Source: Brachybacterium phenoliresistens
Lineage (GTDB): Bacteria; Actinomycetota; Actinomycetes; Actinomycetales; Dermabacteraceae
Length of the DNA stretch: 64,000 nucleotides
Direction: 5' to 3'
Assembly: GCF_000576425.1 (NCBI RefSeq)
Contig: NZ_KK069989.1
Span: 124,001-188,000, forward strand
In this document: one piece after another, positions 44,844-54,125 of the stretch
Position numbering within the stretch: position 1 is the first letter of the stretch
Layout of the letters: each line of letters opens with the position of its first letter
Position numbers and translations under genes: made by a program
Notes under the pieces: model-generated
Told to the model about the DNA's origin: nothing
The model's input: the letters and a program-made list of their open reading frames with translations, nothing else
The model's database searches: none

Positions 44844-45344
44844 ATGACGACGACGTCCTGGACCGATCTGGCACAGCTCCTCTCCGACCGCCCAGAGGTG
44901 GCGACCTCCACGGCGCTCGCCGCCGAGGATCAGGCCGGCTACTTCGACCGGAACCGGCAGCCGCTGCTGGATCGGGGGATCGACCGGGCCGACGGGGTCA
45001 CCACGGCCATCGCCCTCGTGGACGCCCTCGCGGAGACCGGGGAGCTGGCCTACCTGGACGAGACGGCCGATGCCGAGACCGTCGCCGCGGCCCTCGGCGC
45101 CCTCGCCCCGGTGCGGGAGTCCGGGGTCGACCTCTCCTCGGTCGCGGAGCTGGACGTCAGGCTCGAACCGGCCCTCGGCGCCGCGAACCTGCTGCTCACC
45201 GAGGCGGGGCTGTACGTCCTGATCCTCGAGGAGGATGTCGACGAGTACCCGCTGGTGGTGGTGCCCACCGCCCGGGTGAGCGAGATCCTCGAGGCGGCCG
45301 GCCGGGCCGGCGCGGGGATCCGCGTCCCCGTCGCGCCGAACTGA
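44844..45344 (+). CDS. DUF6630-like protein
   Basis: 166-residue acidic protein: WTDLAQLLSDRPEVATSTALAAE near the N terminus, GVTTAIALVDALAETGELAYLDE, then LEPALGAANLLLTEAGLYVLILEEDVDEYPLVVV. This pattern resembles the DUF6630 family, whose function is unknown. Leaderless start. No interacting neighbour is apparent. Confidence 0.65.
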   Translation: MTTTSWTDLAQLLSDRPEVATSTALAAEDQAGYFDRNRQPLLDRGIDRADGVTTAIALVDALAETGELAYLDETADAETVAAALGALAPVRESGVDLSSVAELDVRLEPALGAANLLLTEAGLYVLILEEDVDEYPLVVVPTARVSEILEAAGRAGAGIRVPVAPN

Positions 45345-47236: not shown

Positions 47237-48667
47237 TCACAGGACTCGCAGGCGGTGCTCCCCGGGCCGCGGCGTGATGAGCACCCGCGCGCCCTCGCGC
47301 AGGATCGAGGCCCGCGCGCCGTCGACGACGAGCTCGACGTCCTGCTCCTCGGGCACCCAGAACTCGGTGGGCGCCGGGCCCTCCGCCCCGTCCCAGGCCG
47401 CCTTCCAGCCGCCGCCCGCGGAGGACTCCGCGCGCAGCCCGCGGCCGGTGACCGCGACGGCCCGGGGCCGGCGCAGGTGCCGGGCCGCCTCGCTCCCGGG
47501 GAAGGACGCGTCGAAGGACCAGTAGAACCAGCTCCACGCCCAGCGGTCGAAGAGGTCCAGCTGGTGCTGGATGTGGGCCCCGATGCCGGCGAGATCCCCG
47601 AGCCCGCCCCATTCCCCGACGATCACCGGGACCCCGAGCCCCGCGGCGGTCTCCGCGGCGCGGGTGAGGATCGTCGTCACCCGGCGATCGCTGGGCGCGG
47701 ACATGGCCTCGGTGTCCACCACGAGGTCGTAGCCGTGGGGCGAGTACGCCCACGCCCCGCCGTCCAGCGGCGGGATCGCGGCGGGGACGCCGAGGTTGCC
47801 GGGATACGAGTGCTCGCGCAGGATCAGCGCCCCGGGCCGATGCTCCCGGATCGCGGCGGCGGCCTGCCGGAAGAGGTCATGGACGGGGCCCTGCTCGAAG
47901 GGCGCGAGCAGCGGCGCGGCGGCATCGGCCACCGCCCGGTGCAGCGACTCGTCCTCGAGCCGCGCCAGCTGCGCGAGACGCGCCGCCGGGTCGGAGAGGT
48001 CCGCGGCGACCTGCTCCGGGGCCTGGCCGGTGCGCTCGGCGAGCGCCCCAAGGATCGCCTGCTGCACCTCGACCATGAGGGCGCCGGGGGCGGGCTCGTT
48101 GAGCACGTCGTAGCCGATCACCGCCGGATGGCCGCCCAGGCGCCGGGCCAGCTCGCCCCACATCGCGGTGAAGCGGGTGCGGATGCCCATCCCGTCCGGC
48201 CCGGGGGCATCGGCCCAGAACGCGTCCAGCGCCTCCTGCACGGCGGCGGAGGAGACGTAGGCGTCGCTCCACAGGTCGCTGGGGGTGAAGGGCTGCGCGG
48301 TGAGCGTCGCCCAGGCCGGCGCGCCGTCGCCGAAGGACTGGGAGTACAGGTCCTGATGGGCATCGAGCACCACCGCCAGCCCGGCGCGGTGCAGGCGGTC
48401 CAGCATGTCCTCGAGCCAGGCCAGGTGCCCGGTGTCGTAGCGCCCGGGCTCCGGCTCCACCGCCGCCCAGATCACGCCCAGGCGCACCGCGTCCAGCCCC
48501 GACCGGGCCAGGCCCGCGAGGTCCTCGTCGGACCAGTCGCCGCGGAACGCGGTGCCCGGCACTCCGGCCTGGCCGCGCGGCCCCTTGGCGACGAGGTTGA
48601 TCCCGTGGAGGATCCGCTGCCGTCCGTGCTCGTCGACCAGGGTCGTCCCGTCGGTCCTCAGCTGCAT
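47237..48667 (-). CDS. Glycoside hydrolase family 5 (endoglycosylceramidase-like)
   Basis: 476-residue TIM-barrel glycosidase without a signal peptide, hence cytosolic. GINLVAKGP at the first strand, the acid/base Glu191 in DVLNEPAPG and the nucleophile Glu352 in VIVGEWGG are both present, with FYWSFDASFPG before a C-terminal beta domain (about 390-476). This layout matches the endoglycosylceramidase/EGCrP subgroup of GH5, which act on glycolipids or related glucosides. The exact substrate is unproven. Upstream is the anthranilate-synthase-like gene; no common operon is evident (75-bp gap). Confidence 0.9.
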   Translation of the reverse strand: MQLRTDGTTLVDEHGRQRILHGINLVAKGPRGQAGVPGTAFRGDWSDEDLAGLARSGLDAVRLGVIWAAVEPEPGRYDTGHLAWLEDMLDRLHRAGLAVVLDAHQDLYSQSFGDGAPAWATLTAQPFTPSDLWSDAYVSSAAVQEALDAFWADAPGPDGMGIRTRFTAMWGELARRLGGHPAVIGYDVLNEPAPGALMVEVQQAILGALAERTGQAPEQVAADLSDPAARLAQLARLEDESLHRAVADAAAPLLAPFEQGPVHDLFRQAAAAIREHRPGALILREHSYPGNLGVPAAIPPLDGGAWAYSPHGYDLVVDTEAMSAPSDRRVTTILTRAAETAAGLGVPVIVGEWGGLGDLAGIGAHIQHQLDLFDRWAWSWFYWSFDASFPGSEAARHLRRPRAVAVTGRGLRAESSAGGGWKAAWDGAEGPAPTEFWVPEEQDVELVVDGARASILREGARVLITPRPGEHRLRVL

Positions 48668-48741
48668 CGCCTGCTCCGCTCGTTCGGGGCGGCCGCGGCG
48701 CCATCGCCGGGCCTTCCCCCGAACCTAGCAGCGACGGGCCC

Positions 48742-50700
48742 TCACCGGGTCCCGGCGAGGGCATGTGCCGTCAGCGCCTCCAGGACGGCGATCCCGTCGC
48801 GGGAGAGCACGGACTCCAGGTGCCCCTGGACCGAGGCGAAGCCCTCCCCGCGCAGGGCGTGGACGATCCCGGTGCCGGGATCGGCGGCGACCTCGGCCGC
48901 GAGCGGGCGCAGGGAGCCGGGCGCCTGCGCGGCCAGCTGCGCGGTGCCCGGGGCGACGCGGGCGGCGAAGGTGTTGTAGAAGCCGATCCGCGCCGGGCCG
49001 ATGCCCGCGAACAGGTCCACCGTGCGGGGCACGCCCTGGTGCGGCGCCGGCAGCGGGGCGAGCTCGAGGCCCAGCTCCTGGCACAGCAGCTGGTGGCTGA
49101 GGCACACCGCCAGCAGCGGCTGCGACCGCTCCAGCCGGGCCCGGATCAGCGCGCGCAGGGTCGCCATCCGCGCCGAGGCGGGATCGCGCGGGTCCCCGGG
49201 GCCGGGCCCGGCGACCAGCAGCTGCGCGGCCGCGGCCCGCTCCGGCGTCACCGCGTCCCAGGGGAGGACCTCGGCCTGCACGCCGAGATGGCGCAGCTGG
49301 TGGGCGAGCATCGTGGTGAAGCGGTCCTCCGCGTCGACGATCAGGGCCTCGGCGCCGGCCAGCGGGCCGGGCGCGGCGGACTGCGGCTCCAGCCAGAACC
49401 GGGCCAGGGTCGCGTTGCGGGAGGCCAGCAGCTCGCCGATGCCGGGATCGGCGGCCAGATCGGGGGCCCCGCCGGCCGCCCCGGTGCGGGCGGGCAGCGC
49501 GCCGATGGCGCCGAGCACCCCGGCGGACTTCGCAAGGGTCTCGGCGACTTCCCCGTCCGGGTCGGAATGCCGCACGAGCGTCGCGCCGACGGGGACCCGC
49601 AGCCGGCCGTCCTCGAGATAGGCGGTGCGGATGAGGATGGGCGCGTCCAGCGCGTGCCCGCCCGCGCCGTCGGGGGTGAACAGGGCCGCCACCCCGGAGT
49701 AGTAGCCGCGCGGGCCCGCCTCGTGCCGGCCGATGACGGTGCACGCGTTCTGCATGGGGGAGCCGGTGACGGTGGGCGCGAACATCGTCTCGCGCAGCAC
49801 GTCGCGGGGATCCAGGGCACTGCGGCCGCGCAGCATGTACTCGGTGTGGGTGAGGCGGGACATCTGCTTCAGGTGCGGGCCGGTGATGCGACCGCCGTCG
49901 GAGCAGACGGCGCTCATCATCTTCATCTCCTCGTCGACCACCATGAACAGCTCCTCCGTCTCCTTCGTGGAGGCGAGGAACTCGGCCAGGGCCTCCCGCG
50001 TCGGCGGGGCCTCGCCGTGGCGGAAGGTGCCGGAGATCGGGTTCATGAGCACCTCGCCGTCGCGGGCGACGACATGCGCCTCCGGGCTCGCGCCCACCAG
50101 GATCCGGTCGCCGGCGACGATCGCGAAGGTCCAGTACGCGCCGCGCTCGCGCTCCAGCAGCGCCCGGAACCAGGCCAGCGCCGCCGTGCGGGCCCCGGCG
50201 GCATCGGCCGCCCCCTCGACGTCGGCGAGGTAGTCGCGGCGGATCACGAAGTTCGCGCCCTCGCCCCGGCCGATCTCCTCCTCGATGACGGTGCGCACCA
50301 CCTCGGCGTACCGGGCGTCGGAGACGTCGAAGGCGCCGCCGTGCAGGGCGGGGACGCGGTCCGGGAGGGCGGCGAGCAGCTGCTCGCGGGCGAGCTCGGC
50401 GCGGTCCTCGACGAGCAGGCAGCGCAGGGGGGAGTCCTCGGCGGGCACGTCGTAGCCGCGCTCGCGGATCTGCTGGTAGGGGACCAGGGCGAGGACCTCG
50501 CGGGGCACTCCGTCCTCGTCCAGGGGGATGTCGGCGAGCGCCTCGACGTCGCGGAGGCTCCCGCGCAGCAGCTCGATATCGGCCGGGTCGTGCCCGCCGC
50601 GGCGGTGCGGCCGCTCGGGGCGGGAGAGCAGGGCGAAGGGCTCGTCGGAGGCGACGAGCGCGGCGAGCAGGGCGGCCGGGTCGGCGGTCACGGGGGTCAC
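48742..50700 (-). CDS. Anthranilate synthase/ADIC synthase-type TrpE-TrpG fusion (PhzE-like)
   Basis: 652-residue fused enzyme converting chorismate plus glutamine to anthranilate (TrpEG) or ADIC (PhzE). The chorismate-binding part (1-420) has GANFVIRRDYL, MNPISGTFRHGEAP and VTGSPMQNACTVIGRHE. The class I glutamine amidotransferase (about 450-650) has AVCLSHQLLCQELGLEL with the catalytic Cys and VQGHLESVLS with His/Glu. Which product is made cannot be decided by eye. GTG 50700 has AGGAG 7 nt upstream. The upstream 145 bp carry a Trp-Trp leader peptide and alternative hairpins, which argue that supply of tryptophan controls the gene. No other trp or phz genes are nearby. Confidence 0.88.
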   Translation of the reverse strand: MTPVTADPAALLAALVASDEPFALLSRPERPHRRGGHDPADIELLRGSLRDVEALADIPLDEDGVPREVLALVPYQQIRERGYDVPAEDSPLRCLLVEDRAELAREQLLAALPDRVPALHGGAFDVSDARYAEVVRTVIEEEIGRGEGANFVIRRDYLADVEGAADAAGARTAALAWFRALLERERGAYWTFAIVAGDRILVGASPEAHVVARDGEVLMNPISGTFRHGEAPPTREALAEFLASTKETEELFMVVDEEMKMMSAVCSDGGRITGPHLKQMSRLTHTEYMLRGRSALDPRDVLRETMFAPTVTGSPMQNACTVIGRHEAGPRGYYSGVAALFTPDGAGGHALDAPILIRTAYLEDGRLRVPVGATLVRHSDPDGEVAETLAKSAGVLGAIGALPARTGAAGGAPDLAADPGIGELLASRNATLARFWLEPQSAAPGPLAGAEALIVDAEDRFTTMLAHQLRHLGVQAEVLPWDAVTPERAAAAQLLVAGPGPGDPRDPASARMATLRALIRARLERSQPLLAVCLSHQLLCQELGLELAPLPAPHQGVPRTVDLFAGIGPARIGFYNTFAARVAPGTAQLAAQAPGSLRPLAAEVAADPGTGIVHALRGEGFASVQGHLESVLSRDGIAVLEALTAHALAGTR

Positions 50701-50751
50701 GGGCTTCTCCTGGGATGTGCCCGGGACGGCCCACCGGCTCCACGACTGCGA

Positions 50752-50773
50752 AGACCGCCCCGGAAGGCGGTCT
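50752..50773 (-). terminator. Attenuator-type hairpin (segments 3:4) before the synthase gene
   Basis: On the minus strand AGACCGCC and GGCGGTCT form an 8-bp stem with a 6-nt loop, about 50 nt before GTG 50700. The same CCGCC segment can instead pair with GGCGG at 50791-50801, the stem of the leader's own second hairpin. No T-tract follows. Confidence 0.6.
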
Positions 50774-50800
50774 GGTTCGTGCGTACGAGAACAGGGCCGC

Positions 50801-50845
50801 CTAGGAGGCGGGCCACCAGCTGAGGGTCTCGTGCATCGGGAGCAT
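50801..50845 (-). CDS. trpL: Trp leader peptide (attenuator)
   Basis: A 14-codon reading frame, MLPMHETLSWWPAS, with tandem Trp codons immediately before a CCCGCC segment. The 1:2 pair is CCGCC (just after the Trp codons) with GGCGG (50791-50801 region), the 2:3 pair uses GGCGG with CCGCC of the 3:4 hairpin, and the 3:4 hairpin is at 50752-50773. This is the classic trp attenuator logic. It begins leaderless: TACCCT (50852-50857) is 6 nt before ATG 50845. Codons WW are rare in short random frames. No direct proof of translation. Confidence 0.75.
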   Translation of the reverse strand: MLPMHETLSWWPAS

Positions 50846-50851
50846 GGCAGG

Positions 50852-50857
50852 AGGGTA
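50852..50857 (-). promoter_or_regulatory. -10 hexamer TACCCT for the Trp leader transcript
   Basis: Minus-strand TACCCT ends 6 nt before ATG 50845, just inside the 3' side of the dinB-like gene's downstream gap. -35 is not consensus. Confidence 0.5.
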
Positions 50858-50868
50858 CACCCCCGCGC

Positions 50869-51429
50869 TCACTGCCCGACGCGGCCGTCCACGCACTCGC
50901 GCAGCAGGTCCGCGTGCCCGCAGTGGCGCGCGTACTCCTCGATGAGGTGGACCCGGATCTCGCGCACCGTGCCGTGCGCGCCGACGGCCGCGCCGAGGTC
51001 GTGGTCGTGGCGGGAGAGGGCGGCATCGGTCGCGGCCTGCTCGCGGGCCAGGGCCTCGCGGGCCTCGGCGACCACGGCGTCGTCGGCGATCGCGCCGTCG
51101 AAGTCCCCGTCGGGATCGCCGTACAGGCTGGGGCGGGCATGCTCGGGATCCAGCCAGCTCTGCCAGTCCCGCTCGACCTCCGCGAGGTGCCGCAGCAGCC
51201 CCAGCAGCGACATGGTCGAGGGAGGCACGGAGCGGCGGGCGAGCTGCTCGGAGTCCAGGCCCTCGCACTTCATGAGCAGGGTCGCGCGATAGTCGCGCAG
51301 GTACTCCTGCAGGGTCGCCAGCTCGCCCTCCGGCGCGGGGCCGTCGCTGCTGCGGGGGTCCTCGTCCGGGTCGACCCACATGTCGGGGTGCACGGTCGCC
51401 TTCGTCCATCGCTGCGTGAGCTCGTCCAT
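50869..51429 (-). CDS. DinB/DUF664 family protein
   Basis: 186-residue four-helix-bundle protein: a first helix with LATLQEYLRDYRATLLMKCEGL, SLLGLLRHLAEVERDW with the first metal His, and the C-terminal VHLIEEYARHCGHADLLREC with two further histidines. The three-His site is intact. Function as a thiol transferase is seen only in some family members. Its 3' end lies 23 bp before the Trp leader frame. Confidence 0.88.
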   Translation of the reverse strand: MDELTQRWTKATVHPDMWVDPDEDPRSSDGPAPEGELATLQEYLRDYRATLLMKCEGLDSEQLARRSVPPSTMSLLGLLRHLAEVERDWQSWLDPEHARPSLYGDPDGDFDGAIADDAVVAEAREALAREQAATDAALSRHDHDLGAAVGAHGTVREIRVHLIEEYARHCGHADLLRECVDGRVGQ

Positions 51430-51487
51430 GCGCTGATCGTCCCCCGTCCTCGCGCGATGCGCCAGGCGTTTTCCCCGGCCCGCGCGA

Positions 51488-52285
51488 TCAGGGCACCGGG
51501 CGCACGGCCGCCCGGGCCCGGGCGACGTCCTCGGCCAGCAGGCGCGGCCAGGTCCGGACGTCCGCGGGGGTCCGCGCGACGCGCAGCTCCGCGTGCGGCA
51601 GCAGGCGGGCCAGCTCCTGCGCGGTCGTCAGCGGATGCGAGGGGTCCTCCTCCCAGGCGAGGATCCGCACCGGCACCGTGATCGCGGCGATCCGCGCCGG
51701 ATCGGGCAGGTCGCTGTCCCCGGCGCCGCGCAGCACCGACGGCAGCAGCTCCGGCGGGATCTCCGGGGTGGCGTCGGCCGGGGGGACGGCCGCGGGCGGC
51801 TGCGGGGCCATGGCCCCCGCGGCGACGAACGCGCCCACCCCGCGCGCCTCGACCAGGGCGGCGGAGGCCCGGTAGGCCGCGGCCCGTGCCGTGCGCGTCG
51901 CCCACGCGGTCGGCGGGATCATCAGGGTCAGCGAGGAGAAGCGCCCGGGGTCGGCCACCGCCGCATGCAGCAGCGTGCCGCTGCCCATCGAGGGCCCGGC
52001 GCCGTGCACCCGCTCGCCGGGGAAGTGCTCCTCCAGCAGCGCCAGCAGGTCCTCCGCGAGGACCTCCCAGCGGTAGTCCCCGGGCTCCGGCCGGCCCGTG
52101 GAGCGGCCGTGCCCGCGGGCGTCGTAGCGCAGCAGACGGGTGCCGGACAGGCCCCGCCCCAGGTCCAGGTCGATCTCCCGCTCCCGGGCGCGGCTCGAGG
52201 TGAGCCCGTGCAGCTGGACGACGGGGTGGCCGCCCTCGTCGCTGAGCTCGGTGTCGAGCTCGGCATGCGGGACACGGAATCGCAT
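51488..52285 (-). CDS. Alpha/beta hydrolase
   Basis: 265-residue serine-hydrolase-fold protein. The oxyanion region is VVQLHGLTSSR, and YDARGHGRSTG is typical. The nucleophile elbow is GPSMGS, the acid lies in WEEDPSHPL, and that histidine, or one near the C terminus, would complete the triad. Divergent from the condensation-GNAT gene at 52338, 52 bp apart. Function unknown. Confidence 0.86.
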   Translation of the reverse strand: MRFRVPHAELDTELSDEGGHPVVQLHGLTSSRAREREIDLDLGRGLSGTRLLRYDARGHGRSTGRPEPGDYRWEVLAEDLLALLEEHFPGERVHGAGPSMGSGTLLHAAVADPGRFSSLTLMIPPTAWATRTARAAAYRASAALVEARGVGAFVAAGAMAPQPPAAVPPADATPEIPPELLPSVLRGAGDSDLPDPARIAAITVPVRILAWEEDPSHPLTTAQELARLLPHAELRVARTPADVRTWPRLLAEDVARARAAVRPVP

Positions 52286-52324
52286 CGGCGCCCGCCTCCG
52301 TTCCTCGGGTCGCGGTGAGGACGC

Positions 52325-52330
52325 TAGGTT
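52325..52330 (+). promoter_or_regulatory. -10 hexamer TAGGTT, leaderless start for the condensation-GNAT gene
   Basis: TAGGTT ends 7 nt before ATG 52338; no Shine-Dalgarno is visible. Confidence 0.55.
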
Positions 52331-52337
52331 AGCGCGC

Positions 52338-54125
52338 ATGCGCCTGACCAACGTCTCGCACCTGCGGCTGCCCTTCGGGCGCCTGATCGGCTACGACGTG
52401 GCCGTCGGCACCCCGGGGCGGCCCCTGCCGGTCTCCTTCGACCAGCAGCGCCACGTCGGCGCCGGGGACCGCCCCGGCTCCTGGATGGCCCTGTCCGTCG
52501 CGCTGCCGCGGCGGGTGGAGCGGGAGGACCTCGCCGCGGCGTGGCTGTCGGTGATCGCCCGCCACGGCACGCTGCGCTCGGTGTTCTCTCCCGCCCCCGA
52601 GGGGCGGGCCGATGCCGCCCCGCTGCTGCACGAGCTGGAGATCGGCCCGGGCGCCTGGCGCGAGCATGCCATCGGCCCCGGGCAGGCGGTCGAGGAGGCG
52701 CTGCGCCAGGTGCTCGATGCGCACTGCCGGCCCTTCGCCCGCCCCGCGCACCGCCTGTGCGCCCTCGAGACGGCCGATGCCACCACCGTGGTGATCGGCG
52801 TGGACCACGCCCACGTGGACATGTGGTCGATGCTCGTGATCGGCCGGGACCTGCTGGCCCGGCTCGCCGCGCGCGGCGCCGCGCCCGCGCCCCAGGAGCT
52901 GCCGGAGCCGGTGCCGTCCTTCGCCGAGCACACCGCGCAGCTCGCCGGCCGGCCCCCGGCGCCCGCGGAGGTCCGCCGGCGCTGGGCGGAGGTCCTCGCC
53001 GCCAGCGGCGAGGTCATGCCCCGCTTCCCGCTGCCGCTGGGGGAGGCGGCCTCCCAGCCCGAGCGGGTCGAGGTGCGCGATGTGCTCGACGCCGACGACA
53101 GCGCCGCCTTCGCCGCGGAGGCCCGCGCGAGCGGCGCCTCCACGCTGGCGCTGACGGTCTCGGCGATGACCGAGGTGACCCGGGAGCTGGCCGATGCGCC
53201 GCTGCGTGCCGTGTTCCCGGTGCACAGCCGCCACGAGGCCCGATGGCACGACTCGGTGGGCTGGTTCATCACCAACTCCGTGCTCGAGTCGACCGACCCG
53301 GCGCCGACGGCGTGCGCCGCGGCGATCACGGAGGCGATCCGGCTGGGGTCCTGGCCGCTGGCCGAGGTGCTCGAGCCCTGGGGCGGCATGCCCGAGGCGC
53401 CCGGCATGTTCGCGATCTCCTGGCTGGACCTGCGGCGCCTGCCGGTGCGCTTCGACTCGGCGGGGCTCGGCGCCCAGTACGTGAGCGCCGCGATCCGCAC
53501 CGACGGCGTGATGCTGTGGTTCATCCTCGACGACGCCGGCCTGCACCTGCGCTGCCGCTATCCCGACACGCCGCAGGCGCGCGACGGGGTCGGGAGCTGG
53601 CTCGACGCGCTGGTCGCCCGGATGCGCCGGCGCGCCCGGGAGTCCGCGGGGGACGTGCTGCGGTGCGGCGGGCGCAGCTACCGCATCCAGCGGGCCGCCC
53701 GGGAGGACGTGCCCGCGATCCGGGCCCTGCTGGTCGATGACGAGATCGGCCGCACCCGCGAGGGCGGGGATGACGCCGCCGAGTACGAGGCCGCCTACGA
53801 CCGCGTCGCCCAGGACCGCGCCCACTATCTCGCGGTGGTCCGCGACGAGGCCGGGGCCGTGGTGGGCACCATGCAGCTGACGATCCTGCCGGGGCTCTCC
53901 CGCCAGGGCAGCGCCCGCCTGCAGATCGAGGCCGTCCGCGTCGCCCGCTCCGAGCGCTCCCGCGGACTGGGCTCGGCGATGTTCGCCTGGGCCCACGAGC
54001 ACGGCCGTGCCCGCGGCGCCCGCCTCGCGCAGCTGACGACCGACCTCGGCCGCGAGGAGGCGAGGGCGTTCTACGCCCGGCTCGGCTACGTGGAGTCGCA
54101 TGCGGGGCTGAAACGGCCCCTGTGA
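52338..54125 (+). CDS. Condensation-domain-GNAT fusion protein
   Basis: 595-residue stand-alone fusion. Residues 1-450 resemble an NRPS condensation/acyltransferase domain (PapA/C-domain fold): DRPGSWMALSVALP, then VDHAHVDMWSM at 155-165 as a variant of HHxxxDG in which His157 and Asp161 keep their spacing but the first His is Asp and the final Gly is Met. Residues 455-595 are a GNAT domain (IEAVRVARSERSRGLGSAMFAWAHE, ARAFYARLGYVESH). No adenylation or carrier domain is nearby. It may acylate or acetylate a small molecule or an amino group. Leaderless start from TAGGTT. Confidence 0.82.
   Translation: MRLTNVSHLRLPFGRLIGYDVAVGTPGRPLPVSFDQQRHVGAGDRPGSWMALSVALPRRVEREDLAAAWLSVIARHGTLRSVFSPAPEGRADAAPLLHELEIGPGAWREHAIGPGQAVEEALRQVLDAHCRPFARPAHRLCALETADATTVVIGVDHAHVDMWSMLVIGRDLLARLAARGAAPAPQELPEPVPSFAEHTAQLAGRPPAPAEVRRRWAEVLAASGEVMPRFPLPLGEAASQPERVEVRDVLDADDSAAFAAEARASGASTLALTVSAMTEVTRELADAPLRAVFPVHSRHEARWHDSVGWFITNSVLESTDPAPTACAAAITEAIRLGSWPLAEVLEPWGGMPEAPGMFAISWLDLRRLPVRFDSAGLGAQYVSAAIRTDGVMLWFILDDAGLHLRCRYPDTPQARDGVGSWLDALVARMRRRARESAGDVLRCGGRSYRIQRAAREDVPAIRALLVDDEIGRTREGGDDAAEYEAAYDRVAQDRAHYLAVVRDEAGAVVGTMQLTILPGLSRQGSARLQIEAVRVARSERSRGLGSAMFAWAHEHGRARGARLAQLTTDLGREEARAFYARLGYVESHAGLKRPL

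Follow-up and report, generated by a model that had tools for sequence, protein, structure and literature searches.

The window analysed here, a stretch of 64,000 nucleotides of Brachybacterium phenoliresistens, encodes a fused enzyme of the TrpE-TrpG/PhzE type, and it raises two questions. Is the gene controlled by tryptophan supply through a leader peptide and alternative hairpins, as the initial annotation had proposed? And does its product serve tryptophan synthesis or, as a PhzE-like enzyme might, the synthesis of a secondary metabolite?

A short frame with two adjacent Trp codons precedes the gene

The leaderless-type 14-codon frame with two adjacent Trp codons that had been claimed for the minus strand was indeed found at 50845-50801, where it reads ATG CTC CCG ATG CAC GAG ACC CTC AGC TGG TGG CCC GCC TCC TAG. 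The motifs CCGCC, GGCGG, CCGCC and GGCGG occur in the order claimed, and the distance from the last stem (3:4) to the GTG at 50700 is 51 nt, where about 50 nt had been given. The enzyme behind the leader has both domains expected from its proposed type, that is, a chorismate-binding domain and a class I glutamine amidotransferase domain in one protein. The layout is as follows.

50852..50857, minus strand: -10-like box TACCCT, its end 6 nt ahead of the leader ATG; a convincing -35 box was not evident by eye
50801..50845, minus strand: leader peptide frame MLPMHETLSWWPAS and its stop codon, predicted leaderless, of a kind found in 80 of 83 loci
50813..50818, minus strand: adjacent Trp codons (codons 10 and 11); TGGTGG is invariant in a 69-row alignment, whose rows had been selected by TGGTGG
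50806..50811, minus strand: strand 1, CCGCCT, within the leader frame, placed by folding and pair counts
50797..50802, minus strand: strand 2, AGGCGG, beginning in the leader stop codon, placed by folding and pair counts
50766..50773, minus strand: strand 3, AGACCGCC, partner of strand 2 (antiterminator) or of strand 4 (terminator)
50752..50759, minus strand: strand 4, GGCGGTCT, then a weak T-rich stretch, placed by folding and pair counts
48742..50700, minus strand: fused chorismate-binding and glutamine amidotransferase enzyme, TrpE-TrpG/PhzE type, 652 aa, GTG start with AGGAG ahead

A box of the TANNNT kind stands exactly 6 nt ahead of only 9 of the 3206 ATG or GTG triplets of the window. 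A possibility was, nevertheless, that the 3:4 hairpin is simply the terminator of the gene upstream and that the WW frame is a chance ORF. As a matter of position this would fit, since the hairpin lies 3' of a mycothiol-S-transferase-type gene read from the same strand, whose ORF ends at 50869, and the leader frame sits within a longer open frame (ORF 50801-51409). The comparison with relatives bears directly on this point.

Incidentally, we noticed another short frame, MSTSTRWWWCPPPG, at 45235-45279 on the plus strand. It has three Trp codons, lies within overlapping long ORFs and is probably a chance occurrence.

The leader and its promoter box are kept in relatives

A scan of genome contigs gave at least 80 loci of the enzyme among the matches listed, mostly from Microbacterium, and a search of relatives added more. 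Counting the gene copies with at least 400 nt available upstream, window included, the WW leader was present in 80/83, and the leader together with a TANNNT box immediately ahead of the start codon in 79/83. Loci L033, L043 and L084 were left out of these counts, since their contigs stop too near the gene. Counted as misses were L080 and L085, which have no leader, and L083, whose TGGTGG lies in the coding frame and which was also excluded from the alignment and spacing sets. Shuffled sequences yielded a WW leader in 24/8300 cases and a leader with a -10 box in 0/8300; for control segments taken from the same loci, the figures were 7/1944 and 0/1944. Judged by this comparison of sequences, the association of WW leader and box upstream of the gene is not due to chance. 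It also counts strongly against the reading of the hairpin as a terminator of the mycothiol-S-transferase-type gene.

The end of the TANNNT box lies 6 nt (49 leaders) or 7 nt (30 leaders) from the start codon, that is, in 79 of the 80 leaders, and 64 also have a TG one base ahead of the box. Because this spacing is fixed, the transcript is predicted to begin at the leader start codon, which would make the leader itself leaderless. The 80 leaders reduced to 69 distinct sequences in the alignment, in which the core letters of strands 2, 3 and 4 are invariant or nearly so, as is expected when one strand must pair with two others. Loss of the WW codons and stems from homologous loci, named in the initial annotation as evidence against an attenuator, was not what we saw: both were kept.

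The alternative hairpins are stable, and covariation is seen in the terminator

In the window copy, the three pairings have computed energies of -9.3 (1:2), -14.4 (2:3) and -15.3 kcal/mol (3:4). All are stable, and the z-scores against dinucleotide shuffles are strong for 1:2 (-2.9) and 3:4 (-4.35), but the 2:3 stretch (+0.17) and the whole 145 nt (-0.96) are not unusual, and the 74-nt core stands at -1.45. Such mixed scores make the folding of a single sequence only partly convincing, and it proves little alone in GC-rich DNA.

The relatives gave a broader view. The 1:2, 2:3 and 3:4 segments fold in 69/69 sequences, with means of -10.0, -14.6 and -16.4 kcal/mol and weakest values of -4.1, -10.7 and -11.3 kcal/mol, respectively, and the expected pairings were seen in the structures displayed for 11 of the 69. 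In a fixed register, 82.0% of alignment cells pair for 1:2, 87.7% for 2:3 and 90.5% for 3:4. Rigid counting of this kind was discarded for hairpin 1:2, where it misleads, since the alignment has relatives pairing in two registers, of the CCGCC and CACCG types. Of the 69 sequences, only 40 have a terminator of greater stability than the antiterminator.

Two-sided changes were found in three terminator pairs, in 17 cells vs 5.0 in shuffles; 15 of these 17 are a single A-U to C-G change at the base of the stem, which relatives may share by descent. Covariation in the antiterminator pairs was not above that of shuffles. A slide of the structure by +3 gave a covariation score of 0.085, vs 0.079 for the structure itself, partly because hairpin 1:2 uses two registers. 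When arms were swapped between loci, the native 1:2 pair was the better one in 54/69, in what is a weak test, and native 3:4 pairs were not favoured (29/69). As computed, then, the three pairings are mutually exclusive and placed so that a stalled ribosome would mask strand 1, with covariation for the terminator only. A search of Rfam, RF00513 (Trp_leader) included, gave no match at E up to 1 for positions 48000-53000 of the window.

The U-tract of the window copy is weak: the 8 nt that follow the stem contain 3 T, which places this copy with the 11 weakest of the 80 leaders. This would suit a leader acting by coupled translation or Rho-dependent termination rather than through an intrinsic terminator, and precedents exist: cys operon leaders without obvious terminators are described for actinobacteria (PMC1262725), and leaders without a U-rich stretch are reported, trpL2 among them (PMC8079986). 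We nonetheless hold such a mode of action to be unlikely. At least 4 T occur in the 8 nt after the stem in 69/80 leaders, and the 3:4 stem of the window, for which the shuffles gave so low a score, ends far enough from the start codon that, by position, the AGGAG is not covered.

A covariance model finds the element before trp genes across the class

We then turned to covariance model R1. In the genome of the window, where 150 of 14075 first-look candidates were scored, it gave one strong match, this locus (E 9e-14). The next stood at E 0.09, and matches at that value and above were taken as noise. Across the class, R1 matched at least 111/296 sampled genomes at E up to 0.01, in a scan that scored 16 first-look candidates per genome and may therefore miss some, while a few of the 111 may be chance.

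Ninety matches, our own included, were inspected; those from the class were the 89 strongest (E up to 4.6e-4) minus that of genome G219, plus the weaker L209 (E 0.003). The gene downstream was trpEG in 44, trpE in 22, trpS in 17, trpD in 2 and none of these in 5, so that 85/90 stand ahead of one of these four trp genes. Nine downstream proteins were checked with HMMs, both TrpD, six TrpRS and one TrpB among them. A WW leader was present in 86/90, and in 80 of those a -10 box is found 6-8 nt ahead of a start codon. The matches without a tested trp gene downstream were L193, L200, L202, L206 and L209; those without a WW leader were L193, L200, L202 and L209. This link to trp genes, added to the conservation of leader and box, makes it extremely improbable in our view that the WW frame is a chance ORF beside another gene's terminator.

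In two genomes of the class (L139:1617-2708 and L144:346-1455), a predicted leaderless Trp attenuator of this kind is found ahead of trpD, the gene for anthranilate phosphoribosyltransferase. Within the genus, R1 gave a match at E up to 0.001 in 8/38 genomes. Besides the window's own, these are seven species (L210-L216) with a WW leader that is predicted to be leaderless, ends in WWTA or WWAA and has a -10-like box ahead. An extra trpB follows this leader directly in six of the seven; in L212, the contig ends. Identity between the L213 copy and the other trpB of these genomes is 52-59%. A second match in one genome of the genus (L217 in G022, E 9.8e-4) was set aside, as there is no leader at the match.

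A leaderless attenuator is the predicted mode of control

The observations are a leader frame, its conservation, stable alternative hairpins, a fixed promoter spacing and a link to trp genes across the class; from these we infer the start site, the termination and the response to Trp. We are highly confident that the element is a leaderless, ribosome-mediated, Trp-responsive transcription attenuator of the fused anthranilate synthase, as predicted from sequence. The classical attenuator design claimed at the outset is supported, with a WW leader, kept in relatives, followed by the alternative 1:2, 2:3 and 3:4 pairings.

Given the spacing of the -10 box, RNA polymerase would begin with the A of the leader ATG or a nucleotide adjoining it, and a ribosome would load on the 5'-terminal AUG. 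With Trp-tRNA scarce, it would stall on the two UGG codons and mask strand 1, as we reckon with a ribosome cover of about 12 nt past the codon being read, a figure taken from PMC4833913. Strands 2 and 3 would then pair, the terminator could not form and the gene would be transcribed. With Trp-tRNA plentiful, the ribosome would run on to the stop codon, which lies between strand 1 and strand 2, and cover the two of them, strands 3 and 4 would pair, and transcription would stop before the gene.

One fact that speaks against such an attenuator is that the genome has its own, separate TrpE. This full-length protein scores above the cut-off of its model and is encoded near IGPS, TrpB and TrpA on contig C1, which also carries TrpD; TrpS is on C18 and the window on C2. 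The absence of any other trp gene nearby, as claimed by the initial annotation, holds for all six. No WW leader was found in the 20 kb examined around the separate TrpE.

The fused enzyme is probably an anthranilate synthase

The separate TrpE also gives weight to another reading, namely that the fused enzyme serves as a PhzE-like ADIC synthase in the synthesis of a secondary metabolite, its Trp control being incidental or decayed. The similarity to PhzE is real: the nearest solved structure is PhzE (3r74, E 2.9e-144, residues 38-648). No NCBIfam cut-off was reached among the best 25 of 39 families listed, so that similarity alone leaves an ADIC synthase possible. Genome content points the other way. 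We examined seven genomes that we call Microbacterium-type since they share group label g24 and resemble the named Microbacterium loci in their leaders and in an identity of 64-68% over the part compared. At E up to 1e-10, each has three TrpE matches, the fused enzyme and two others. One of the others was checked in 4/7 and best fitted pabB, above the cut-off in two and just below in two; the second was checked in 1/7 and best fitted isochorismate synthase. In 7/7, then, no candidate anthranilate synthase other than the fused enzyme was found, and TrpA is present in 7/7. Taken together, these two facts indicate that the fused enzyme is likely the anthranilate source of the Microbacterium-type genomes, if those strains make tryptophan.

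Nor did the surroundings of the gene suggest a phenazine pathway. The three PhzF-family matches of the genome all lie on other contigs, and no partner phenazine genes were found beside the fused enzyme, where three neighbours are MST/DinB, GH5 and GNAT proteins and a fourth ORF has no Pfam match. A search with PF03284 says nothing, as it gave no match here nor in any control genome. By homology and genome content, the downstream gene falls in the Trp pathway. An ADIC synthase role is accordingly a reading we think very unlikely, and the initial annotation, which had spoken against a phenazine function, is supported, no TrpE other than the fused enzyme having been found in the seven genomes.

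Two of the neighbours deserve mention for themselves. The GH5-family protein (47237-48667, minus strand) has partial similarity to endoglycoceramidase I; its longest frame shares the strand of the fused enzyme gene and begins 74 nt beyond it, and the two may be co-transcribed. At 52140-54125 on the plus strand, a C-terminal GNAT acetyltransferase domain is combined with an N-terminal condensation-domain match that is weak and falls just short of the Pfam cut-off, an unusual pairing.

Gene and attenuator may have been acquired together

In a tree of 43 chosen rows, 25 of them from the loci of the contig scan, the window protein groups with 19 others, all from Microbacteriaceae and 18 from Microbacterium itself, to make a set of 20 with support 100/99. 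It sits on a long branch (0.56), inside or beside these Microbacteriaceae. No fused homologue was found in 34/35 other genomes of the same genus, five of the 35 being under 90% complete; the remaining genome, G015, has a distant one (42% identity) without leader. This grouping with Microbacterium and near-absence from its own genus suggest that gene and attenuator were possibly acquired together, by horizontal transfer from a Microbacterium-like source. This is the simplest reading; an old inheritance with many losses might also account for the pattern.

A wider proposal can be put forward tentatively, and we would not rate it as high as even. Anthranilate synthase and its own Trp sensor might form a portable, self-regulated cassette that moved horizontally from Microbacteriaceae into the genus, and leaderless Trp attenuators might be the sign of accessory trp genes, switched on only when Trp runs short and added to a basal set that is not controlled. 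In favour of it, the ordinary trp operon of this genome shows no such element, and seven other species of the genus have an attenuator of the kind, directly before an extra trpB in six.

Relation to known attenuators

The locus is a well-made but ordinary example of a known device, and leaderless attenuation is not new either. In E. coli, the trp leader, like ours, has its WW at codons 10-11 of 14, and the enterobacterial trp leader has a ribosome binding site. The Streptomyces venezuelae attenuator (Lin et al. 1998) and fused enzyme (Ashenafi et al. 2015) reportedly belong to the same gene. The enterobacterial leader, Rfam RF00513 (number per PMC4046766), follows the same control logic as the element described here.

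A close likeness is with trpL1 of S. lividans TK24 (MFAHSTRNWWWTAHPAAH), which is leaderless by RNA-seq and stands before a monocistronic trpE (PMC8079986). Both have a leaderless Trp-codon leader, two hairpins and a single downstream anthranilate synthase gene, but trpL1 has 18 codons, three of them Trp, whereas ours has 14 codons with two. Five of our loci (L189, L192, L201, L205 and L208) have a leader of the form MFA...WWWTA(H/P)PAA, and their fused TrpEG is 50-54% identical to the window enzyme. S. venezuelae is alike in both respects, with a trp attenuator and a fused enzyme described as an anthranilate synthase (PMC5897657); experimental support for Trp-dependent regulation is cited for its attenuator and for that of C. 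glutamicum (PMC4833913).

Seliverstov et al. 2005 predicted trp and trpS attenuators in actinobacteria, the trp ones in Corynebacterium and Streptomyces (PMC1262725). They share with ours a double or triple UGG and an antiterminator and terminator built on shared complementary triples; their conserved triple is gGCC-rGCy-GGCC, whereas here it is GGCGG-CCGCC-GGCGG, and Microbacterium is absent from the genome list in the parts of that paper covered. The leaderless polycysteine ORF attenuators of mycobacteria (Canestrari 2020, as cited in passages of PMC9031893 and PMC13236596) are also short leaderless ORFs that sense an amino acid, but they differ in their cysteine codons and in the operons they control. 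In the open-licence literature, we found no paper joining Microbacterium with a Trp leader-peptide attenuator.

As regulation, our finding confirms known biology. The alignment and covariance model find the element across a bacterial class, while Rfam gave no match for the window copy, and they may help in naming genes, since PhzE-like fused enzymes that follow a Trp leader most probably are anthranilate synthases. The locus also offers a clear and testable example of a leader-peptide attenuator that may have moved along with its gene.
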